Positions 2,524 to 62,295 of a stretch of 64,000 nucleotides of DNA are shown here, in pieces; within the stretch, counting starts at the first letter, position 1, and each line of letters starts with the position of its first letter. Location: the NCBI RefSeq assembly GCF_007752935.1, contig NZ_CP036319.1, forward strand, positions 2,914,001 to 2,978,000. The letters are read 5' to 3'. Source of the stretch: Crateriforma conspicua. GTDB taxonomy: Bacteria > Planctomycetota > Planctomycetia > Pirellulales > Pirellulaceae. Under the pieces are notes generated by a model that saw only the letters and a list, made by a program, of their open reading frames with translations, ran no database searches and had not been told where the DNA came from. The position numbers were made by a program, and so were the translations under genes.

Positions 2524-3116
2524 TGGCATCCACTTACTCCTTCGGCCTGTTGATCCTGTTTTACGTGCTGTTGGTGCTGGAGTTTCTGGTTCCAAGCGGT
2601 GGCCTAATAGGCGTTGCGGCGGTGGCATCGGCGGTCGCCTGTTTGGTGACCGCGTTTTCGCACAGCGTTTTTTTGGGGACGGTTTATTCGTTGGTGATCA
2701 TGGCGTCGACGCCGGTGGTGCTGATGCTGGTGATCAAGTTGTGGCCACACACGCCGATCGGACGCCGCATTTTGAATCGACGCCCCGGTCAAGCCGATCC
2801 GCAGCGACCGCAAAAGGTGACCGAATCGGGGGTGGCCTATCCGGATTTGATCGGACGATCCGGTGATGCGTTGACGGATCTGTTGCCAAGCGGTCGTGCC
2901 AGGATCGGTGGCGACGCCTTGGACGTCACATGTCTGGATGGCCCCGTGGATGCCGGCAAGGCGGTACACGTGGTCGACATCAGCGGCGGTCGAATCCGCG
3001 TCCGTCGTGGTGAAGGTTTCAAAGCGACGCCCGACGAATCGTCGGATCCCAATGTCGTCGACCGCGACTCTCCGGCGGCGTCCGATTTGTCCTTCGACAT
3101 GGACGATTTTGAGTAG
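2523..3116 (+). CDS. Short NfeD-like membrane protein
   Basis: This 197-aa protein resembles the C-terminal half of its upstream neighbour. Two or three hydrophobic segments come first (LILFYVLLVLEFLVPSGGLI, then AAVASAVACLVTAF and a third near residue 60), followed by an OB-fold (about 120-165, LIGRSGDALTDLLPSGRARI). A charged, aspartate-rich tail ends the protein (SFDMDDFE). The LVPSGGLIG turn is the family's PGxxG membrane motif. The start codon overlaps the stop of the long NfeD gene (TGATG), so the two are probably made together, and paired long and short NfeD genes are common in bacteria. The 248 bases after its stop show no gene and no clear terminator before the convergent hsdR gene. 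Confidence 0.75.
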   Translation: MASTYSFGLLILFYVLLVLEFLVPSGGLIGVAAVASAVACLVTAFSHSVFLGTVYSLVIMASTPVVLMLVIKLWPHTPIGRRILNRRPGQADPQRPQKVTESGVAYPDLIGRSGDALTDLLPSGRARIGGDALDVTCLDGPVDAGKAVHVVDISGGRIRVRRGEGFKATPDESSDPNVVDRDSPAASDLSFDMDDFE

Positions 3117-3364
3117 GCTGAATTCGAACCAACGTTGGTACCGCCATTGCAGGCGGCGATTCGCTGCATTGACCCGCCAGCGGAGATTTCGAACCGTTCC
3201 CCGATCATGTAGCGATTGACTTTACGTCGCACAGCAGCAGCGCCGTGAATAAGACTGGCGAAAAGCTTCGAAGGCTCGCCGTGGCTAAAGGCTGGCGAAT
3301 TCAGGTTTGAACTTCGGTAGTTGAATCGTTCGAAATGAGCGGATTGAGTATCGCAAGAGTCGCC

Positions 3365-6300
3365 CTACGATTGTCTCGATCGGTGCTTCTTAAAATTTTC
3401 GGCCTGCTCGTAGATCTCTTTGTAGACCTCGTCACGGTCAACGGGTGGGTAGCCGTGGTCGGCTAGGACGAGGATGAGATCGACTTTGAGTTCAGCTTTG
3501 ATGTCGTCGCGCTGGCTCCAGTCGGTGTATTTGACTTTGTCATCGACGACCAGCTTTACGGCTTTGGATAGTTCGATCAGCTTGTCTTCGGGGTAGGTGA
3601 AGTCGTACTTGATGGCGAGGGCTTTGAGGATGTCGTAGAAGGCTTTTTCTTCGAGGTCGATTCCAAGGTCTGCGAATGAACCTCGTTCATCACCAAGTTC
3701 TCTCGCTAGCTCCGCGAACCGGTTGAAAAGTTCATCCGTGACGTAATCAGTGAAATCACTCGTTACATCGCTGACCAGCACGCTTTCTTCGTCCCGCTCG
3801 TTGTAGCGATCGACCAGTGATTGGAACTTCTTACTGAACTCGATCCCCTTGGATCGATTCGTCTTCTTGAAGTCCTCAATCGCCTTGGCCAGCAACTGCT
3901 GCAGCAACTTGATCTTCGTGTTGGGCAGCTTGATCTTCTCGATCTTGGCGAGGTAGTCATCGTCGAAGATGTCGATGCCGTCGACCGTGCCCATACTGAA
4001 GATCTCTTCGACTCCGTCGCTCTTGAGTGCTTCGGCGATCATCTCTCGGACGCGTGCGTTCATCTGAGCGGCGTCGGGGGCGTTACCCTTGGTCAGCTTG
4101 AACACGATGGAGCGAACGGCCAGATAGAAGTGGATGTGATCACGCTCGCTCTGGGTTAGGCCCTCGCTGCCACAACAAATGTCATAGGCCGCTTTCATAC
4201 GCTGAACCAAAGCCATGAAACGCTTCTCGATCTTGTCCGTAAGCATGACGTATTCGGACGCACGATTGAGGCAAGCGAGCTGGCTGACAGAATCGCCGTT
4301 GAAATAGTCCGAGGTGTCGAACTTTTGTAATAGCTGGCGAAGCAGGTCCAGGTGGTCTTTCACGGTCACGACGGATTGTTGGATGTCCTCGATGTTCCGC
4401 TCGTCGGCTTTGTTGTAGTGAGCCATCGCCAGATTCATCTGAGACTTGATGCCGATGTAATCGATCACCAAACCCTTTTGCTTCGATTCAAACTTGCGGT
4501 TCACTCGGGAAATCGTCTGAATCAAGTTGTGGCGTTTGATCGGCTTGTCGATGTAGATGCTGTCCAGTTCGGGCACATCAAATCCGGTGAGCCACATATC
4601 GACGACGACCGCAATCTTGAAGTTCGATTTCGCGTCCTTGAACTGGCGTGCAAGTTCTTCGCGATACTCTTTGCTGCCCAGCAGGTCGTACAGATCCTTG
4701 TCGTCATCTTTGCCGCGAGTCATGATCATCTTGATCCGCTCCATCGGCTTGATCTTCTTGCGCTCGGTCTCAGACAGTTGGATGCCCTCGGCACACTCGC
4801 GGACTTCATTCCACTCAGGACGCAGAGCGATCACTTCCTTGAAGAAGTCCCAGGCGATCTCGCGTTTGCTGCACACAAACATCGCCTTGCCTTCGACTGT
4901 CGAACCTTCTTCGACTCGTTTCTCGTAATGAGCCACAAAGTCGGCGGCCAGAGCCTTGATGCGGTCGGGATCGCCCAGGATGGCATTCATCTGGGCCGAG
5001 GCTTTCTTGCTCTCCTCGATCTGATAATCGCTGGCCCCTTCGTCGGCGCAGCGCTGGTAGTAAGCTTCGATTTCCTCCAGCTTCTTGTTGTCTAACAGCA
5101 CCCTGGCTGCTCGCCCCTCGTAGACGATCCGCACGGTGATCTCATCTTTCACCGACTCGGTCATCGTGTAGGAATCGACCACCTCGCCAAAAACATCGAG
5201 CGTGGCGTCGATGGGCGTGCCGGTAAAGCCGACATAGGTGGCATTGGGCAGCGAATCGTGCAGGTACTTGGCAAACCCGTAAGTCTTCTTCACTCCCTTG
5301 TCCGTCACCTTCAGCTTTTGGTCCAGATTGATCTGACTGCGATGCGCCTCGTCGGAAATGCAGATCACGTTGCTGCGCTCGGTCAGCAACTGAGCGTCTT
5401 CGGTGAACTTGTGAATGGTCGTCAGGAAAACGCCGCCGCTCTTGCGTCCGGCCAGCAACTCGCGGAGCTTATCGCGGCTTTCGACGCTCACGACAGTTTG
5501 ATCGCCGATGTAGTTCTTGGCGTTGGTGAACTGCTTCGACAATTGATCGTCCAGATCCGTGCGGTCAGTAATCAGCAGGATCGTAGGGCTCTCGAATTCG
5601 AGGCTCTTCATCAACAGCCGCGTCAGGAACAGCATCGTAAAGCTCTTGCCGCAGCCGGTTGCGCCAAAGTACGTGCCGCCCTTGCCGTCGCCATCGGGCT
5701 TGCGAGCTTGCCGGATGTGTTCATACAGCTTGCAAGCCGCGTAGAACTGCGGATACCGACAAACGATCTTCACTTCGGCCTTGGAAACATCCGGAAAGTA
5801 GATAAAGTGCCGGATCACCTGCCGCAAACGCCGTTGGTCAAACAATCCTTGCAGCATCGTATGCAACGAATCGATACCGTCTCGCGTGGCGGACTCTTCG
5901 CCCGTGATTTTCTGCCAGGTGTAGAAGAACTCGTAGTCCGCAAACAGCGAACCCATCTTGTTGTTTACCCCGTCGCTGATCACGCACAGGGCGTTGTACT
6001 TCATCAGTTCGGGAATATCGCGAGCGTAGCGGATCGTCAATTGTTTCCAAGCGTCGTGCAAAGTCGCGTTCTCGCGGATCGCGCTCTTGAACTCCAGCAC
6101 CACCAGCGGCAAGCCGTTGATGTAGAGAATCCCATCCGGAATCCTCAGCTCGCGGCCTTCGATCTCCAGTTGGCTGACGATTCGATAGATGTTCGTGTCG
6201 TCGACTTCGTATCCAACTCTGGCTTCGGCTGCGAGCATCATGTCGCTAGATTGTCGCCTTTCGCTCCGCGAAACTAGCTTCTCCCCGTCTGGAGTTTCTT

Positions 6301-6664
6301 CCGAACGCATCTTTCGCGGAGCGAAAGGCGACTCTGAGTAGTCGATCAGTTGGATGTAGAGATCCTTCTGGTCGCGGTCTTCCCGTTTCAGCAGGAAGCC
6401 GTCCGAGACCCATTTGCAGATCGTTTTGTTGGAGTCGTAAAGATCGGCGGCGTTGAGTGCGTCCAGTTGCCGAAGGATCGAATCGATTTCGCCCGCTGTG
6501 ATGTTGTCGGCGGCGTAACGCTTCGAAAGATAGTCGCGTAGGTCGCTGCGGAACAGTACATCGCTGGGCTCGCGATCAAGCTCGTTGCCAAGTGTGTGCG
6601 GGTAGCCTTGATCACCCAGCAGGCTGATAATGGCTTCTTCGAGTTTCGCTTCGGTGTATTTCAC
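3365..6664 (-). CDS. hsdR: Type I restriction endonuclease subunit R
   Basis: This is the translocase and nuclease subunit of a type I restriction system, 1099 aa from a GTG start. Numbered from that start, the N-terminal nuclease has PDGILYINGLPLVVLEFKS, with Asp177 and the Glu191-x-Lys193 pair of the PD-(D/E)xK fold. The helicase motor follows, with Walker A GATGCGKS (334-341), DEAH (438-441), ending with QTISRVNR. The long C-terminal helical region contacts the methylase. Residues of about 111-137 are encoded by a palindromic repeat inserted in frame between LIDYS and NIYRIVSQLEI, segments that lie close together in most HsdR proteins; the nuclease core is downstream and intact. A TTG at 6685 also opens this frame, but a palindrome covers it and GTG 6664 is preceded by GGAG, so I prefer the latter. 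It is the last gene of the operon. Confidence 0.95.
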   Translation of the reverse strand: MKYTEAKLEEAIISLLGDQGYPHTLGNELDREPSDVLFRSDLRDYLSKRYAADNITAGEIDSILRQLDALNAADLYDSNKTICKWVSDGFLLKREDRDQKDLYIQLIDYSESPFAPRKMRSEETPDGEKLVSRSERRQSSDMMLAAEARVGYEVDDTNIYRIVSQLEIEGRELRIPDGILYINGLPLVVLEFKSAIRENATLHDAWKQLTIRYARDIPELMKYNALCVISDGVNNKMGSLFADYEFFYTWQKITGEESATRDGIDSLHTMLQGLFDQRRLRQVIRHFIYFPDVSKAEVKIVCRYPQFYAACKLYEHIRQARKPDGDGKGGTYFGATGCGKSFTMLFLTRLLMKSLEFESPTILLITDRTDLDDQLSKQFTNAKNYIGDQTVVSVESRDKLRELLAGRKSGGVFLTTIHKFTEDAQLLTERSNVICISDEAHRSQINLDQKLKVTDKGVKKTYGFAKYLHDSLPNATYVGFTGTPIDATLDVFGEVVDSYTMTESVKDEITVRIVYEGRAARVLLDNKKLEEIEAYYQRCADEGASDYQIEESKKASAQMNAILGDPDRIKALAADFVAHYEKRVEEGSTVEGKAMFVCSKREIAWDFFKEVIALRPEWNEVRECAEGIQLSETERKKIKPMERIKMIMTRGKDDDKDLYDLLGSKEYREELARQFKDAKSNFKIAVVVDMWLTGFDVPELDSIYIDKPIKRHNLIQTISRVNRKFESKQKGLVIDYIGIKSQMNLAMAHYNKADERNIEDIQQSVVTVKDHLDLLRQLLQKFDTSDYFNGDSVSQLACLNRASEYVMLTDKIEKRFMALVQRMKAAYDICCGSEGLTQSERDHIHFYLAVRSIVFKLTKGNAPDAAQMNARVREMIAEALKSDGVEEIFSMGTVDGIDIFDDDYLAKIEKIKLPNTKIKLLQQLLAKAIEDFKKTNRSKGIEFSKKFQSLVDRYNERDEESVLVSDVTSDFTDYVTDELFNRFAELARELGDERGSFADLGIDLEEKAFYDILKALAIKYDFTYPEDKLIELSKAVKLVVDDKVKYTDWSQRDDIKAELKVDLILVLADHGYPPVDRDEVYKEIYEQAENFKKHRSRQS
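6253..6332. repeat. Palindromic element inside hsdR
   Basis: Two perfectly complementary 21-base arms (6253-6273 and 6312-6332) enclose a 38-base centre. The same arm sequence, extended to 27 bases, forms the palindrome at 62230-62295 in this window. Here it lies within the hsdR frame and is translated (SPFAPRK on one arm, SRSERR on the other). The element is 80 bases, not a multiple of three, so flanking duplicated or extra bases must restore the frame. The longer inserted protein segment of about 40 residues fits that. Confidence 0.85.
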
Positions 6665-6683
6665 GGTGCTCCAACACTTTTTC

Positions 6684-6774
6684 AACGCAAGGTCGCAAAG
6701 GTGCTGAGGCGCAAAGGGGAGGGACTCATGTCTGAATGTTTCTTTGCGACTCTGCGGCTTCGCGTCTCTGCGTT
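6684..6774. repeat. Imperfect palindrome (ACGCAGAGGCGC family) between hsdR and GxxExxY gene
   Basis: Left arm 6684-6716 begins AACGCAAGGTCGCAAAGG. Right arm ends at 6774 with CGCGTCTCTGCGTT. The arms can pair imperfectly over about 33 bases around a loop of about 25. The element ends one base before the stop codon of the GxxExxY gene and belongs to the same sequence family as 7184-7276 and the three hairpins inside the 205-bp units at 8.7-9.3 kb. Confidence 0.8.
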
Positions 6775-6775
6775 T

Positions 6776-7156
6776 TCATAATTCATGCACGACCCGATGA
6801 ATTCCGTCTTTGACCAGTCTTTCGCCGAAATTAATCACCAGGCCCAGCTTGAGGTTCCTCAGTCGTAGGTATGTCAGTAGCTGCGTGGCGAAGATTGAAT
6901 TGTATTGCGTCACGGCCTTGCATTCGACAATGACGAGGTCGTTGACGAGCAAGTCGATCTTCAGCGGTGTAGCGAGCGTGACGTCCTTGTACTGAATGGG
7001 CGAGGGAACTTGTCGTCGGACGTTGCAGCCCTGTTGTGTCAATTCGTAGGCCAGGGCTTCTTCGTAGACTGATTCAAGCAAACCCGGGCCGCCTAAGGTG
7101 CGATGGACTTCAATGGCCGCGGAAACGATTACCTGGCTGATCTCGTTTTCGGTCAT
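6776..7156 (-). CDS. GxxExxY protein (PD-(D/E)xK_3 nuclease-like family)
   Basis: This 126-aa protein carries the signature GPGLLESVYEEALAYEL that names the GxxExxY family, which Pfam places in the PD-(D/E)xK nuclease superfamily. The core is visible as PLKIDLLVNDLVIVECKAV, with Asp and Glu-x-Lys in the usual spacing, followed by the conserved QLLTYLRLRNLKLGLVINFG. The cellular role is not established. It sits on the same strand between hsdS and hsdR, a place not normally occupied in a type I operon. It is tightly bracketed by related imperfect palindromes (6684-6774 and 7184-7276), as is the second copy at 56712, so gene plus palindromes look like an inserted unit. ATG 7156 is chosen; a TTG one codon earlier also opens the frame. 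Confidence 0.85.
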   Translation of the reverse strand: MTENEISQVIVSAAIEVHRTLGGPGLLESVYEEALAYELTQQGCNVRRQVPSPIQYKDVTLATPLKIDLLVNDLVIVECKAVTQYNSIFATQLLTYLRLRNLKLGLVINFGERLVKDGIHRVVHEL

Positions 7157-7183
7157 CAATCGTTACTCCGAAGTCATTTTTTT

Positions 7184-7276
7184 AACGCAAAGGCGCGAAG
7201 GCGCAAGGACGCAAAGGGGATGCGCGCGACTTTTCAATGTCTTCTTTGCGACTCTGCGCCCTTGCGTCTTTGCGTT
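7184..7276. repeat. Imperfect palindrome (ACGCAGAGGCGC family) between GxxExxY gene and hsdS
   Basis: Arms 7184-7216 and 7244-7276 are complementary at about 27 of 33 positions (AACGCAAAGGCGCGAAGG against CTTGCGTCTTTGCGTT). It fills the gap between the hsdS stop and the GxxExxY start and pairs with 6684-6774 to bracket that gene. As RNA it would form a long hairpin inside the operon transcript. Confidence 0.85.
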
Positions 7277-7293
7277 TTCTTTGTCCGACCGCA

Positions 7294-8721
7294 TCATACG
7301 CTCTCCGCCACCAGTTTTTCAGCCTCAGGAATGCGAAGTTCGCCTGAGAGGAGTTTGGGGAGGAGTGTGTCGCGAAGTTTGGATAACACCGCGGTACTCT
7401 GCCAGTTCTCACTAATCCTGTTGGTTAATGGCACTACCGAGTCGCCGAAAGCGTTTTGCAATTCCACAGATGGAAGAAGGAGTTGAATTGTTCGTAGCTG
7501 ACTCTGCTTGATTCCGATCACCGTCGTACCCGTAGCATGGCCGCGAAGGTCATGCTGAAATTGCGGAGACTGCAAAAGGAATCTGAGGTAGGAATTGTGG
7601 AGCAAGGTCGGTTCCCCCCGCAAAGTTATGATTCGCTGTGCTAATGCAACTTTACGTCCATCCAATTGCGCAACCTCACCTAAAGGTGCCTCCGTTGTCA
7701 TTACGACATCATCACGCTCTGGAATCCCACGCCGCATCCAAGTGTCGTAATCTTCGATAGCAATGTATTCTTGCGGAGGCAGTATTCTTCCGCCCTTAAC
7801 GATCTTAGCCGTAATTAGTGGAACCCCACTCGTTGTTTTCTTCGGCGTTTTGCCTCTGTAATCGATGATTGCTTCCATTGAATCTTCGAGTGGTTTCACG
7901 TCCCATCCCTCAGGGATCCAGCCCATTTCTTCATCGAAGGCGAAGGTGGCGGGGAAGAGGCTGCGGATGTTCTCTGGGAGTGGCTTTCGGGCGGGGCCGA
8001 GGGCGCGGCGGGTTTCGGCTCGGGCGGCCAGTGGCTCGGGGATGGAATGGCCAGCGGCCAAGGCATTGTCGATCACCGGATCAAAATCCACAAACCAACT
8101 CTTGAACAACGCCCGCGCCATCGACTCCAGCGTCTCATTCATCCGACGATTCAAATCGATCTTGTCATCGATTATGGATGCCAGTTCCGTAATTCCTTCG
8201 CGGACATTGTCCGGAGGAATAGGAACAACTACCTCACGAATGTCCTTCAGATTTAGAGTTCGCTGAACCGTTGTATTGAAACGTGAGTTCATGAATTGCT
8301 GAGCTGGGTGGCTCAGCAGTGCAAGCCGCACCCATCGGCGAAGTTCCGGGTTTTCGAGGCGTACAACTGCGATGGCTCGCGCGACGTTCCAATCCGCCAT
8401 TTCCTCTGAGACTAAAGCACAATCGCCGGGATTGCCAACGAGTGTGATGAGTAGCTCGTTACCGGATAATCGAGTTCGCCTGTACTCGTCGTCTTTTTTA
8501 GCACTAATCAAGAAATCTGGCTCACCAAGCACTCGCCCATTCTTGACATCTGAGACTTTGACAAGCGGAACTCCCTCCGCGGTGTTTTTGCCGGGGTACA
8601 TGACTCCAACCGCGAGCGCGTTCCTTGAGTCTTCAAGCAAACTCTCGATTGTTGTAAACCTCCATTCTGCCGGGGCGGTTCCACCGCATAACTCCCACGT
8701 CGCCCGCAAATCACTCTCCAT
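7294..8721 (-). CDS. hsdS: Type I restriction-modification specificity subunit S
   Basis: This 475-aa protein has the two-fold HsdS build. The first target recognition domain (about 20-170, with GVPLVKVSDVKNGRVL) is followed by a central conserved helix (about 175-225, IIDDKIDLNRRMNETLESMA then LFKSWFVDFDPV). The second recognition domain (about 285-430, GWDVKPLEDSM and GVPLITAKIVKGGRIL) is followed by a distal helix (LSKLRDTLLPKLLSGELRIP). It sets the DNA sequence read by the HsdM/HsdR complex. ATG 8721 lies inside the tail of the last 205-bp unit (TATGGAGAGTGA) and is preceded by GGAGG nine bases upstream. An upstream in-frame extension through the repeat is unlikely to be used because the overlap start fits better. 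The 5' end was probably once overlapped directly by hsdM; see the tandem repeat. Confidence 0.93.
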   Translation of the reverse strand: MESDLRATWELCGGTAPAEWRFTTIESLLEDSRNALAVGVMYPGKNTAEGVPLVKVSDVKNGRVLGEPDFLISAKKDDEYRRTRLSGNELLITLVGNPGDCALVSEEMADWNVARAIAVVRLENPELRRWVRLALLSHPAQQFMNSRFNTTVQRTLNLKDIREVVVPIPPDNVREGITELASIIDDKIDLNRRMNETLESMARALFKSWFVDFDPVIDNALAAGHSIPEPLAARAETRRALGPARKPLPENIRSLFPATFAFDEEMGWIPEGWDVKPLEDSMEAIIDYRGKTPKKTTSGVPLITAKIVKGGRILPPQEYIAIEDYDTWMRRGIPERDDVVMTTEAPLGEVAQLDGRKVALAQRIITLRGEPTLLHNSYLRFLLQSPQFQHDLRGHATGTTVIGIKQSQLRTIQLLLPSVELQNAFGDSVVPLTNRISENWQSTAVLSKLRDTLLPKLLSGELRIPEAEKLVAESV

Positions 8722-8926
8722 AACCAAGCACCTCCAGATTCTTCCGGATGGCTTGATCGAGCTTCTCCGTGGGGGCATACAAATCTAAAACGCAGAGACG
8801 CGAAGACGCAGAGACGCAAAGATGTTGTTCTGACTGTCTTCCTTTGCGTCTTTGCGACCTTGCGTCTTTGCGTTGAAACCCATCCCGCAACACCAAAGCA
8901 TCGTCGCCTAGCAAGCTACTCCCCAT
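8711..8926 (-). CDS. Repeat-encoded 71-codon linker ORF, copy next to hsdS
   Basis: The frame opens at ATG 8926, preceded by GGAGG, in one 205-bp unit and stops at TGA 8711-8713 in the next unit. That stop overlaps the hsdS ATG by 11 bases. The product would begin MGSSLLGDDALVLRDGF, run through the translated palindrome and end KLDQAIRKNLEVLGYGE, a copy of the HsdM tail. Seen directly: start, ribosome binding site and overlap are all preserved. Whether a stable peptide is made is unknown; passing ribosomes on to hsdS is my inference. Confidence 0.35.
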   Translation of the reverse strand: MGSSLLGDDALVLRDGFQRKDARSQRRKGRQSEQHLCVSASSRLCVLDLYAPTEKLDQAIRKNLEVLGYGE

Positions 8927-9131
8927 AACCAAGCACCTCCAGATTTTTCCGGATGGCTTGATCGAGCTTCTCCGTGGGGGCATACAAATTTAAAACGCAG
9001 AGGCGCGAAGGCGCAGAGGCGCAAAGATTTTGGTCTTGGTCTCTTCCTTTGCGTCTTTGCGACCTTGCGTCTTTGCGTTGAAACCCATCCCGCAACACCA
9101 AAGCATCGTCGCCTAGCAAGCTACTCCCCAT
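8916..9131 (-). CDS. Repeat-encoded 71-codon linker ORF, middle copy
   Basis: It has the same design as its neighbours. ATG 9131 lies 9 bases after GGAGG, and TAG 8916-8918 overlaps the next linker ATG (8926) by 11 bases. The predicted product shares MGSSLLGDDALVLRDGF and the KLDQAIRKNLEVLGYGE tail, and differs from the copy nearest hsdM only in the part translated from the diverged palindrome. The short cysteine- and arginine-rich middle (LCVSASSRLCVL) is the palindrome read as protein. I infer a coupling role rather than a folded product. Confidence 0.35.
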   Translation of the reverse strand: MGSSLLGDDALVLRDGFQRKDARSQRRKGRDQDQNLCASAPSRLCVLNLYAPTEKLDQAIRKNLEVLGYGE

Positions 9132-9336
9132 AACCAAGCACCTCCAGATTTTTCCGGATGGCTTGATCGAGCTTCTCCGTGGGGGCATACAAATTTAAAA
9201 CGCAGAGGCGCGAAGGCGCAGAGGCGCAAAGATTTTGGTCTTGGTCTCTTCCTTTGCGTCTTTGCGACCTTGCGTCTTTGCGTTGAAACCCATCCCGCAA
9301 CACCAAAGCATCGTCGCCTAGCAAGCTACTCCCCAT
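9121..9336 (-). CDS. Repeat-encoded 71-codon linker ORF, copy next to hsdM
   Basis: ATG 9336 lies inside the last codons of hsdM (TATGGGGAGTAG), so the hsdM stop at 9326-9328 overlaps this frame by 11 bases. It stops at 9121-9123, again overlapping the next linker start. The ribosome binding site GGAGG is part of the hsdM coding end (codons for LEV). This is the first link in the chain hsdM, three linkers, hsdS. There is no similarity to any protein family I recognise other than the copied HsdM tail. Confidence 0.35.
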   Translation of the reverse strand: MGSSLLGDDALVLRDGFQRKDARSQRRKGRDQDQNLCASAPSRLCVLNLYAPTEKLDQAIRKNLEVLGYGE

Positions 9337-10918
9337 AACCAAGCACCTCCAGATTCTTCCTGATCGCTTGATCGAGCTTCTCCGCTTCATCCATCTGCCC
9401 GTACAGCGTGGCGGTCAAGTCAGCCATCTTCGTCTCAAACGGAATGCCGTCGTCTTCCAGCGGAGCCGCGCCGACATAACGTCCCGGCGTGAGCACGTAG
9501 TCGTTGGCTTTGATGTCCTCCAGCGTCGAGCTTTTGCAAAAGCCGGGTTGGTCTTCGTACTCGCCGTCCTTCGATTCGCCTCGCCAAGCGTGATAGGTCC
9601 TCGCAATCTCGTCGATGTCGTCTTCGGTCAACTCCTTGTGCGTGCGGTCCACCATCGTGCCGTGGTTTCGAGCGTCGATGAAAAGCGTTTCGCCGTGACG
9701 GGCGCGGAGGTCGCTACCAGACCGGCGGCTAGCGCCTTGCCGCTCACCTTTATTCTTGGTGATGAACCACAGGCAAACGGGAATCTGAGTCGTGTAAAAC
9801 AACTGCCCCGGCAGCGCGATCATGCAATCGATCAGATCGTTTTCGATCAGCTTTTGGCGAATCTTGCCCTCGCCGCTGGTGCTGGTGGACATCGAACCGT
9901 TGGCCAGCACAAAACCCGCGATGCCATTTTCAGACAGCTTCGACACCATGTGTAGGATCCAGCCGTAGTTGGCGTTGCCGGTGGGCGGCACGTCGTAACC
10001 GCTCCAGCGAGGATCGTCGCTCAGTTCGTCGGCGGCTCGCCACGCTTTCAGGTTGAACGGCGGATTGGCCATGATGTAATCCGCCTTCAGATCCGGATGC
10101 TGATCCTTGAAAAAGGTGTCGGCGGGGACTTCGCCCAGATTGCCCGAGATGCCGCGAATGGCCAGATTCATTTTGGCCAGCTTGTACGTCGTGCTGGTTT
10201 GCTCCTGCCCGTAGATCGAGATGTCTTTCTGGTTGCCGCTATGGCTGGTGACAAACTTGACGGACTGGACAAACATGCCGCCGCTGCCACAGCAGGGGTC
10301 GTAGATCTTGCCGCTGTACGGCTCGATCATTTCCGCGATCAGGTTGACCACGCACTTGGGCGTGTAGAACTCGCCGCCCCCTTTGCCTTCGGTCGCCGCA
10401 AATTTGCCCAGGAAGTACTCGTAGACGCGGCCTACGACATCCTCTTTGGAATCGGCAATCGTGTTGATGTTGTTGATGCTGTCAATCAACGCCGCCAGCT
10501 TGGCAACATCGATGCCCATCCGCGAGAAGTAGTTGTCGGGTAGTGCTCCCTTGAGCGATGGGTTGTTCTTTTCCACGGCATGCAGGGCGCTATCGATACG
10601 AACGGCGATGTCGTCTTGTTTGGCCTGCGCCACGATCGTGGACCACCGCGAGTTCTCTGGCAGATAGAAGACGTTCTTCATCGTGTAGAACTCGACCATG
10701 TCCACATAGTCGCCCTTGCCGTCATCGATGATCGCCTGCCGCCGCTCCTCAAATCGATCGCTGACGAACTTCAGAAAGATCAGCGAGAGGACGACGTGCT
10801 TGTACTCGGACGATTCAACCGTCCCACGCAGCTTGTCTGCGGTGTCCCAGAGGGTTTGCTCGAAGGATTTTTTGGATTCAGTTGCCTTCTTCTTGGATGC
10901 GGTTGATTTCTTTGCCAT
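9326..10918 (-). CDS. hsdM: Type I restriction-modification DNA methyltransferase subunit M
   Basis: This 530-aa N6-adenine methylase subunit has an N-terminal helical domain (about 15-165, SFEQTLWDTADKLRGTVESS). The catalytic domain follows with FYTPKCVVNLI, the AdoMet loop DPCCGSGG (207-214) and the catalytic NPPF (285-288). The C-terminal part ends EKLDQAIRKNLEVLGYGE. With HsdS it methylates host sites; with HsdR added it cuts unmodified DNA. Around residues 395-410 (NKGERQGASRRSGSDLRA) the protein looks slightly longer than is usual before ETLFIDARN, and the DNA there resembles a dispersed repeat. It is the first gene of the operon, with a promoter-like sequence just upstream. Its last 55 bases are the source of the downstream 205-bp repeats. 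Confidence 0.96.
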   Translation of the reverse strand: MAKKSTASKKKATESKKSFEQTLWDTADKLRGTVESSEYKHVVLSLIFLKFVSDRFEERRQAIIDDGKGDYVDMVEFYTMKNVFYLPENSRWSTIVAQAKQDDIAVRIDSALHAVEKNNPSLKGALPDNYFSRMGIDVAKLAALIDSINNINTIADSKEDVVGRVYEYFLGKFAATEGKGGGEFYTPKCVVNLIAEMIEPYSGKIYDPCCGSGGMFVQSVKFVTSHSGNQKDISIYGQEQTSTTYKLAKMNLAIRGISGNLGEVPADTFFKDQHPDLKADYIMANPPFNLKAWRAADELSDDPRWSGYDVPPTGNANYGWILHMVSKLSENGIAGFVLANGSMSTSTSGEGKIRQKLIENDLIDCMIALPGQLFYTTQIPVCLWFITKNKGERQGASRRSGSDLRARHGETLFIDARNHGTMVDRTHKELTEDDIDEIARTYHAWRGESKDGEYEDQPGFCKSSTLEDIKANDYVLTPGRYVGAAPLEDDGIPFETKMADLTATLYGQMDEAEKLDQAIRKNLEVLGYGE

Positions 10919-10955
10919 GCGGGTCGATCGGATAACGAAAAAGGCAGTGCTTCTA

Positions 10956-10985
10956 CTATTAGGATGAAAACCAAGAGTTTAGCAA
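10956..10985 (-). promoter_or_regulatory. Candidate promoter for the hsd operon
   Basis: Read on the minus strand, TTGCTA (10985-10980) and TAATAG (10961-10956) are separated by 18 bases, 38 bases upstream of the hsdM ATG. This is a sigma-70-like match judged by eye only. Confidence 0.35.
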
Positions 10986-11387
10986 TTTGACCTGTTCTTA
11001 ACACGACCGGTTGCACCATCGGTGTGCCCATTCATTGGATTCGGATTCGCAAACAACCCTGGTGCACAGCTCGACGTAATACAATTGTTGCTATTTGCAT
11101 CCAGTGGATGGTGCGTGAAGCTATGCCGTCAAACCGGGGGCTTGTCCATTCCGGCCGTTTCCCCAGACCGAAGAAGTTCTTGGAGTTACTGGAACACAAC
11201 GCTGGATGTGTTGCCGAACCAGAGGTAACTGTGTGACCGAACGCGGAACGAATGGGAACGCGAACATGGCTACGCAAAGGATCAACTCAACTGCCAATAG
11301 ACCAATGCCAATTTCAATCGAGGTGATCGGCCTACAAATGATTCCAGGCCGAAGCAAAGCACGAAATCACTACGTGTAAGTGTGAGC
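10986..11387. other. Intergenic region between hsdM and thiD
   Basis: About 400 bases separate the hsdM promoter region from the end of thiD. Short open frames exist on both strands (for example 11024-11236 plus) but none has a ribosome binding site, family motif or plausible composition. I see no tRNA, repeat or clear terminator. Its base composition is less GC-rich than the thiD side, so it may be the outer edge of the restriction island. Confidence 0.5.
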
Positions 11388-12230
11388 CTAGCAGCGGATC
11401 GTCTTCTTTGACGCTTCCAAGACGTCGATTGCGCTGACACCCCGGCCGATTCGATACGGCGATGCGATGCCGGCGGTGACGAAACGTCGGGCGCGTTCGA
11501 TGGCCGAAACCAAGTCCTTTTGGGACGCCAGACCGGCGGTGATCGCGGCCGACAGCACGCAACCGGTGCCGTGCAGATTGCCGCCGTCGATCCACTGGGT
11601 CGTCCAGGTTTGCGTTTCCGGCCGTCCGCTTTGGCCTGAGCGCAGCGACAAAAAATCGACCGCGTGATTGTCGAATTGGGCTTTGATCAAGACGGCTGGA
11701 ACGCCCTGGTCGTGCAACCGCGTCGCGGCAACGGCCAAATCGTCTTCGCTTTCGATGCTGGTTTCCGCCAGTCGTTCGGCTTCGAATCGATTGGGGGTGA
11801 CCAGGGACGCGACCGGCAACAACTGGGTTCGCAATGCGTCGACGGCGCCGTCATCGATGATCGCGTGGCCGTGTTTGCTGATCATCACCGGGTCGACCAC
11901 GATCGGACATTTCAGTGACGACAAAGCCGCCGCGACCGTGGCGATCATTTCAGCCGTACCCAAAGCACCGGTCTTCACCGCGTCGGGCGGAATGTCACTG
12001 GTCACGCAGTCGAATTGGCTTTGGAAAAAGTCCATCTGCAGCATTTCGACCGCTTCGACGCCTTGCGTGTTTTGCACGGTCAGCAGCGTCACTACCGCCG
12101 AACCATAGACGCCGAAGGCATGCAGCGTTTTCAAATCGGCTTGCATCCCGGCACCGCCCGACGGATCGCTGCCGGCGATGGTCAGTGCGACGGGATGGCG
12201 TGGGCCGAGTGGTGTTTCAGGTTGGTTCAT
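11388..12230 (-). CDS. thiD: Hydroxymethylpyrimidine/phosphomethylpyrimidine kinase
   Basis: This 280-aa kinase of thiamine synthesis phosphorylates 4-amino-5-hydroxymethyl-2-methylpyrimidine (phosphate) in the cytosol. The N-terminal LTIAGSDPSGGAGMQADLK is the ThiD substrate motif, KTGALGTAEMI follows, and IVVDPVMISKHGHAIID is the typical ribokinase-fold strand and loop. Near the end, WIDGGNLHGTGCVLSAAIT contains the GTGC anion hole with the catalytic base region. The length is normal for ThiD. The ATG at 12230 leaves about 20 residues before the conserved core. It is a single gene here, transcribed divergently from the O-antigen-ligase-like gene across a 256-base gap in which I see nothing else. 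Confidence 0.94.
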   Translation of the reverse strand: MNQPETPLGPRHPVALTIAGSDPSGGAGMQADLKTLHAFGVYGSAVVTLLTVQNTQGVEAVEMLQMDFFQSQFDCVTSDIPPDAVKTGALGTAEMIATVAAALSSLKCPIVVDPVMISKHGHAIIDDGAVDALRTQLLPVASLVTPNRFEAERLAETSIESEDDLAVAATRLHDQGVPAVLIKAQFDNHAVDFLSLRSGQSGRPETQTWTTQWIDGGNLHGTGCVLSAAITAGLASQKDLVSAIERARRFVTAGIASPYRIGRGVSAIDVLEASKKTIRC

Positions 12231-41615: not shown

Positions 41616-41736
41616 TTGAAGTTGCGCTTGTCTGGTAACTCGACGCGTGAGCGAGGAAAAAATGATGTCGACATCGCCTCGCTCACGCTTCGGGTTACCC
41701 AAAAAACAATGCCACGGGTAAAAGCGCAACTTCGAA
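41616..41736. repeat. Nested palindromic repeat upstream of the VPEP protease
   Basis: The inner arms 41634-41656 and 41677-41699 (23 bases, two mismatches, containing GCGTGAGCGAGG) enclose 20 bases. A second perfect 12-base pair (GAAGTTGCGCTT at 41618-41629 and its complement at 41722-41733) encloses the first. The whole can fold into a two-stage hairpin. The inner GTAAC...GAGCGAGG arm resembles an intergenic repeat I associate with Rhodopirellula-type genomes; that comparison is from memory. Confidence 0.8.
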
Positions 41737-56613: not shown

Positions 56614-56685
56614 AAACACGGAGGCACCGAGGACACAGAGAATCCGTCCCCGTACCAGCTCTGTGATCTTTGTGGCTCCGTGTTT
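56614..56685. repeat. Imperfect palindrome (ACACGGAGGCACCGAGG family), left of GxxExxY gene
   Basis: Arms 56614-56640 and 56659-56685 are complementary at about 22 of 27 positions, with loop AATCCGTCCCCGTACCAG. It has the same length and layout as 57114-57185 on the other side of the gene. Confidence 0.88.
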
Positions 56686-57092: not shown

Positions 57093-57113
57093 AATGAATC
57101 GTGAATGAGTTGA

Positions 57114-57185
57114 AAACACGGAGGCACCGAGGGCACAGAGAATTCGTCCCCGTACCTGCTCTGTGATCTCCGTGCCTCCGTGTTT
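57114..57185. repeat. Imperfect palindrome (ACACGGAGGCACCGAGG family), right of GxxExxY gene
   Basis: Arms 57114-57140 and 57159-57185 are complementary at about 24 of 27 positions. The sequence is a close copy of 56614-56685 in the same orientation. The 300 bases after it, up to the next gene, show nothing further. Confidence 0.88.
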
Positions 57186-57489
57186 CAAACTCTCGCTCAC
57201 TCCATCCAGGCTCAGTTTTTGAAAACAATGAGGGCAGGACTCAATTACTTTTCTCCGTCAGACAACGTGTGGGCTTGGTGTGATCGATCGTCATGACCCG
57301 GACGACGATTTGCTCCGCACAGGCGGTCGGTGTGACTCGGGTAAACTTGACGAGTGATCCGAATGTGAAATTGGTCCTCCATTGGGTTCAGTGGCCTGCG
57401 AAGTTTCCGAAACGCGAAAATTGGCGGTCCCGGCAGTCCGGTGGCGCTTCGGTGGGGTTGAACACGATAAACTGGACCGGATCGATTTC

Positions 57490-62229: not shown

Positions 62230-62295
62230 GTCGCCTTTCGCTCCGCGAAAGTTGCGGAGGGCATGGAACGCAACTTTCGCGGAGCGAAAGGCGAC
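62230..62295. repeat. Perfect 27-bp palindrome between convergent genes
   Basis: Arms 62230-62256 and 62269-62295 are perfectly complementary around a 12-base loop (GAGGGCATGGAA). The first 21 bases of each arm are the same as in the element inside hsdR (6253-6332). Placed between the ends of moxR and the propeller gene, it could also work as a two-way terminator, though it lacks long T runs. Confidence 0.92.

Follow-up and report, generated by a model that had tools for sequence, protein, structure and literature searches.

REPINs in two linkers of the type I restriction subunit HsdR of Pirellulaceae: probable repeated insertion into permissive loops

The window, by which we mean the whole stretch of 64,000 nucleotides of Crateriforma conspicua DNA analysed here (contig NZ_CP036319.1, positions 2,914,001 to 2,978,000), carries a type I restriction operon with hsdM, hsdS and hsdR, whose coordinates are collected in Table 1 together with those of the other features. 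The assignment of HsdR is based on its HSDR_N nuclease motif (D184 and E198-x-K200), on a SWI2/SNF2 motor with Walker A (residues 341-348) and a DEAH box (445-450), and on the adjoining hsdM and hsdS. The genus-mate G001 has about 175 bp in place of the island that holds the operon, with flanks about 94% identical to those of the window. Between hsdS and hsdR lies a gene (6776-7159) for a GxxExxY (PDDEXK_3) protein. The gap between hsdS and hsdM contains a tandem array (8713-9384) with a 205-bp unit in 3.3 copies (96% matches), each of which re-encodes the HsdM C-terminus (EKLDQAIRKNLEVLGYGE) and bears a AACGCAGAGACGCGAAG-type palindrome. Imperfect palindromes of short periodic units (CTTTGCGT; CACGGAGG-like) are found at 7184-7276, 8789-8874, 56614-56685 and 57107-57192, and palindromes resembling them occur between the hsd genes of G176, G284 and G347.

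Table 1. Features discussed in the text; positions are those of the window unless another locus is named.
Feature	Position	Strand	Remarks
Island with the hsd operon	3010..11404	.	missing from genus-mate G001
hsdR, type I restriction subunit R, host of the insertion	3365..6685	-	1106 aa; Pfam HSDR_N, SWI2_SNF2, T1RH-like_C; TIGR00348 hsdR
Site B of HsdR	4778..4792	-	residues 632-636, AEGIQ; empty in the window gene
REPIN-encoded HsdR linker	6251..6334	-	residues 118-145, ESPFAPRKMRSEETPDGEKLVSRSERRQ; predicted disordered; transcript with a predicted 21-bp stem
REP unit 1 (arm) of the hsdR REPIN	6253..6273	+	GTCGCC-TTTCGC-TCC-GCGAAA; one of the 39 exact copies of its repeat family
Spacer between the hsdR REP units	6274..6311	.	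38 nt
REP unit 2 (inverted arm) of the hsdR REPIN	6312..6332	-	
hsdS, same operon	7294..8778	-	without intragenic REPIN
hsdM, same operon	9326..10918	-	without intragenic REPIN
Intergenic REPIN, same family	62230..62295	.	arms 62230-62250 and 62275-62295, 24 nt between; conserved in genus-mate G001
RAYT-like ORF	L155:16097-16867, at 2719.6 kb	-	between two REPINs of the family of the hsdR element

Within hsdR, positions 6253-6332 form an element of 80 bp made of two perfect 21-nt arms, 100% complementary to each other, and a spacer of 38 nt. The first arm reads GTCGCCTTTCGCTCCGCGAAA, and each arm alone is a short imperfect palindrome (a stem-loop, TTTCGC-TCC-GCGAAA) with GTCG at its outer end. 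As the first-pass annotation of this DNA had it, the inverted repeat is perfect, is translated in frame in the minus-strand ORF between LIDYS and NIYRIVSQLEI, and precedes the nuclease core. Its figure of about 40 inserted residues has to be lowered: the 80 bp account for about 28 residues, and about 40 is the excess of the whole linker over short-linker relatives. In the predicted structure residues 121-160 have a pLDDT of 39-47, with confident strands on either side, and the linker is probably a disordered, length-variable segment just ahead of the nuclease motif; the exposed loop suggested earlier thus agrees with a structure prediction. A 120-nt stretch of the transcript with the element is predicted to fold at -53.8 kcal/mol (z -6.0), with a stem of 21 bp. 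A chance palindrome is ruled out by the four arm matches with up to three mismatches, against zero expected from the shuffled window sequence, and by the genome-wide copies set against a control of 0.

These copies were counted along the 7.18-Mb genome, a single contig, as exact places and places with up to two mismatches, using the reversed arm as control. The arm has 39 exact copies and 81 with at most two mismatches, the control none, and the exact arm is present in 65 of 241 Pirellulaceae genomes, reaching 508 copies in one of them. In the source genome the family occurs as isolated units, as direct tandem arrays and as inverted pairs, of which there are four; two of these pairs flank a Y1-type transposase gene, one lies in hsdR and one is the intergenic palindrome at 62230-62295, where the identical 21-mer is found, as had been noticed. 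Of 44 near-perfect copies, 28 carry GTAGCG after the stem; the motif thus stands on the inner side, the reverse of the usual polarity. A census of 94 copies (every place with up to two mismatches, and poorer matches in the stretches that contain these) placed 92 outside genes by codon-usage scoring, the hsdR pair being the only intragenic one. In G007 three of 85 exact copies were flagged as intragenic by the same scoring; on reading, about one REPIN is convincing and two copies lie at ORF ends. The in-frame REPIN of G007 is found at L265 3750-3850 (about 2394049-2394149 of G007), and its host gene presumably encodes a large DUF1549-like protein.

All copies of the family in the source genome are confined to 2.41-4.14 Mb and 6.68-7.05 Mb. 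Single REP units are mostly on the plus strand before about 2.98 Mb and mostly on the minus strand between that point and 3.63 Mb, although some deviate from this pattern; concerning a link with the replication strand, the GC skew of the stretches around the REPs does not switch along with their orientation. A further 23-nt inverted repeat (91%) of the window, at 41634-41699 (GGTAACTCGACGCGTGAGCGAGG), resembles another REP family.

The protein encoded by the ORF between two REPINs of the family scores 25.7 bits with Y1_Tnp (cut-off 23) and has the HVH and Y motifs; its best NCBIfam match is NF047646, REP-associated tyrosine transposase, with 50 bits, under the cut-off of 80 for that model. REP unit 2 of hsdR with its flank (AGA..GATGCGTTCGGA) shares 36 identical nt with a REP adjoining this gene. 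Inverted pairs, dispersed copies and a flanked Y1 transposase gene together make up a REPIN family and its RAYT. The element in hsdR is therefore a REPIN, an inverted pair of REP units, non-autonomous and probably mobilised by a transposase of the RAYT type (HUH, Y1).

We compared the linker between LIDY and NIY in HsdR homologues of many phyla, where it measures roughly 5-46 residues and has no strong palindromes. In about 80 HsdRs, the majority from other phyla, a palindrome comparable to that of the window was not found in this linker; homologues of distant species with the same segment, which the first-pass annotation had named as refuting evidence, did not turn up among them, and in the close HsdRs of G110 (Blastopirellula marina), G080, G347 (Rubripirellula obstinata) and G348 the linkers are also without palindromes. 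The segment is therefore not ancestral protein sequence, a reading that these palindrome-free linkers, mostly non-planctomycete, rule out; among the HsdRs compared, the sole other carrier of the window's family is also from Pirellulaceae (G307:C177). Together with the dispersed family and the RAYT-like link, its absence from the nearest HsdRs bears out the earlier view of a small mobile palindrome that landed in the gene. That the segment is ordinary protein sequence or an assembly artefact has a negligible probability: nothing was found in its favour, and it is opposed by a multi-copy repeat with a control of 0, by the single-contig genome and by the absence from homologues. The exact insertion is reconstructed from relatives at 78-89% DNA identity, which define no target duplication; the window linker differs from an empty linker plus 80 bp, and some native residues seem missing.

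The same linker (site A) is occupied in several relatives, mostly by other families. It holds a different palindrome in G176 (GTAGCTGGACTCGCCAG / CTGGCGACTCCGGCTAC) and another in G307:C46 (GTAGGATGGACACTCTTGTCC / GGGCAAGAGTGCCCAATCTAC), while G283, G284, G280 and G271 share GATAGGCTKCCAGCCTGT and its inverse (GATAGG type), and G307:C177 has the window's own REPIN family at the same codon. These sequences are repeats too, in their own genome or in that of a relative: in G307, an incomplete genome (77%) that is apparently metagenome-assembled, 51 places match the G307:C46 type, and the GATAGG type has 14 places in G283, 52 in G284, 33 in G280 and 20 in G271. For the G176 type there are 12 places in G307 but, allowing up to one mismatch, none in G176 besides the two hsdR arms, so that this REPIN probably arrived with the gene. 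An inverted-repeat scan of the REPIN linkers against codon shuffles gave scores of 23, 21, 20, 17, 12 and 10, the two lowest belonging to G176 (p 0.01) and G307:C46 (p 0.04), whose identification rests mainly on the repeat-family evidence. A second linker, site B near residue 634, is filled in G307:C177 by a REPIN of the G176 type and in G176 by GTCGCTCAACTTTCCAAGTTGA, a unit that occurs at 21 places in that genome and at 23 in G307.

Four REP families are thus found at site A and two at site B, five overall. Three pairs of sister genes on the tree, window/G176, G307:C177/G307:C46 and G284/G348, differ in REPIN content within each pair. Since each family requires its own event, at least four insertions would be needed at site A (five should the window gene and G307:C177 have been hit independently), and two at site B. 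Across nine loci no strong palindromes were found in hsdM or hsdS, and hsdR alone has them. Repeated hits on one gene family are far more than the rarity of intragenic copies would lead one to expect; we claim no formal probability for this recurrence, because the starting case was picked for its insertion and the sample is small.

HsdR seems to have remained a working protein. The dN/dS of the window gene against relatives is 0.07-0.12; two sister pairs with REPINs in both genes gave 0.12 and 0.16, other pairs 0.04-0.10, and the low values in the REPIN-carrying pairs indicate that HsdR is still under purifying selection, although part of the history that they record may predate the insertions. 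The protein looks functional, and we infer that the REPIN-bearing HsdR still restricts DNA. Among the GATAGG-type genes, those of G283, G280 and G271 contain stop codons within the stretch searched, while that of G284 is open throughout.

The reading that we prefer, with a probability of nearly 0.8, is REP transposition into permissive HsdR loops, where the insertions are tolerated and from where horizontal transfer sometimes takes them to other hosts. A REPIN of a REP family spread through the Pirellulaceae would have inserted in frame into the length-variable linker, between two strands ahead of the nuclease motif, where it would be read as about 28 added residues. The reason that we infer for the recurrence is that these loops are most likely permissive, in a gene moving between REP-rich hosts, with insertions elsewhere being purged. 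Some REPINs would probably ride inside hsdR when the operon is transferred, because the site A family of G176 has no other place in that genome at up to one mismatch; the HsdR case thus suggests that REPINs travel inside genes by horizontal transfer. An effect of the hairpin on HsdR expression is possible, given the strong predicted 21-bp stem of the transcript.

Permissive loops alone leave the high frequency of hits on hsdR unexplained, and a preference of the transposases for their target is the other serious alternative, even if we consider it unlikely. RAYTs of several families would favour some DNA feature of this part of hsdR (its sequence, a locally single-stranded state or a REP already present), and the hotspot would then arise at insertion and not through selection. 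In its favour are the presence of five REP families at two sites of a small number of genes, the differences between sister genes, the spared hsdM and hsdS and a published precedent, the recB gene of two Xanthomonas species with different REPs at approximately the same site (Di Nocera et al. 2013, PMC3733652). However, counted from the LIDY codons the families start at different points, a shared flanking motif was not found by eye, and empty homologues have no palindrome at the linker. The number of insertions of the window's family, as distinct from the identity of the element, could also come down to one: an ancestral insertion may have been inherited by, or exchanged between, the window gene and G307:C177 and then replaced or lost in G176, G347, G110, G080 and G307:C46. 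The two genes do agree in codon position, orientation and the 38-nt length of the spacer, and the spacers, of mostly different sequence, have a weak similarity (p about 0.01 in a single test). Such a history appears rather unlikely, as it requires several losses or replacements on the tree, the arms match the consensus at 42/42 and 41/42 positions despite the diverged spacers, and the other families at the linker demand separate insertions anyway.

A recruited function, finally, would make the mRNA hairpin or the longer linker a means to lower or tune restriction that is under selection, for instance because it shields a host that has newly received the operon. The predicted stem and its folding energy, the repeated recruitment with the restriction subunit alone affected, and arms that are perfect or nearly so although the spacers differ all fit with this; but many homologues, close ones included, have no hairpin at the linker, and a recent insertion could equally give perfect arms, so that we hold this explanation to be distinctly improbable. 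Docking and function might be combined, with the two HsdR loops of Pirellulaceae as preferred docking sites for REPINs of many families, where a useful hairpin tunes the expression or activity of the restriction subunit, and selfish hairpins repeatedly recruited and exchanged. We regard this combination as quite doubtful; if true, REPIN hairpins would belong to the regulatory equipment of mobile type I restriction operons.

Concerning known systems, REPINs, or REP doublets (BIMEs), and the RAYT transposases associated with them have been described by Bertels and Rainey 2011 (PMC3116915) and by Di Nocera et al. 2013 (PMC3733652), and the family described here resembles them in its inverted REP hairpins with a short spacer, its mainly intergenic dispersal and a RAYT-like gene that has copies of the repeat on both sides. 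It appears to differ from REPINs whose units bear a conserved GTAG (or CGTC) tag at one end, such as a 5' GTAG tag, having GTCG at the outer end and the GTAG motif on the inner side of the stem, and the hsdR copy departs from the mainly intergenic habit by lying inside a gene. The Rickettsia palindromic elements, to which the first-pass annotation had likened the palindrome, are a corresponding case from another phylum, palindromic selfish DNA translated in frame within working genes (Ogata et al. 2000, 2002, via PMC10969869). The parallel is a good analogy, since the hsdR palindrome also lies in frame inside a conserved gene, but the element is a REPIN and not a Rickettsia element: those measure about 150 bp and occupy many unrelated genes of one genome (PMC10969869), while the hsdR element, compared by length and host, has about 80 bp and its family has rare intragenic copies (one pair among 94). 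It should be noted that some Rickettsia palindromic elements have been assigned to the broader REP class in the survey PMC3733652. The host protein shares the fold of the N-terminal nuclease domain and the D..E-x-K motif order with EcoR124I HsdR (PDB 2W00, 4BEB), which is distant (about 17% identity over the nuclease domain) and stands outside the REPIN-carrying subfamily.

The survey by Di Nocera et al. 2013 (PMC3733652) also reports that the planctomycete R. baltica has several REP families, and it describes intragenic in-frame REP dimers that encode 20-30 residues, often in DNA-metabolism genes, and proposes that REPs in flexible linkers may be neutral. Its main text makes no mention of restriction genes, and beyond this paper the literature that we searched yielded nothing on REPs in hsdR or on those of Rhodopirellula. 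Intragenic REPs are usually catalogued singly, as curiosities, whereas HsdR offers a natural series in one protein family, from empty linkers to one linker with four REPIN families across relatives and a second with two occupations. Such a series can be used to test whether these REPINs are survivors in permissive loops, the result of target choice by RAYTs, or recruited parts. Intragenic REPs were therefore already known (Di Nocera et al. 2013), and, judged against the literature searched, it is the repeated occupation of HsdR loops by several families that appears to be new.
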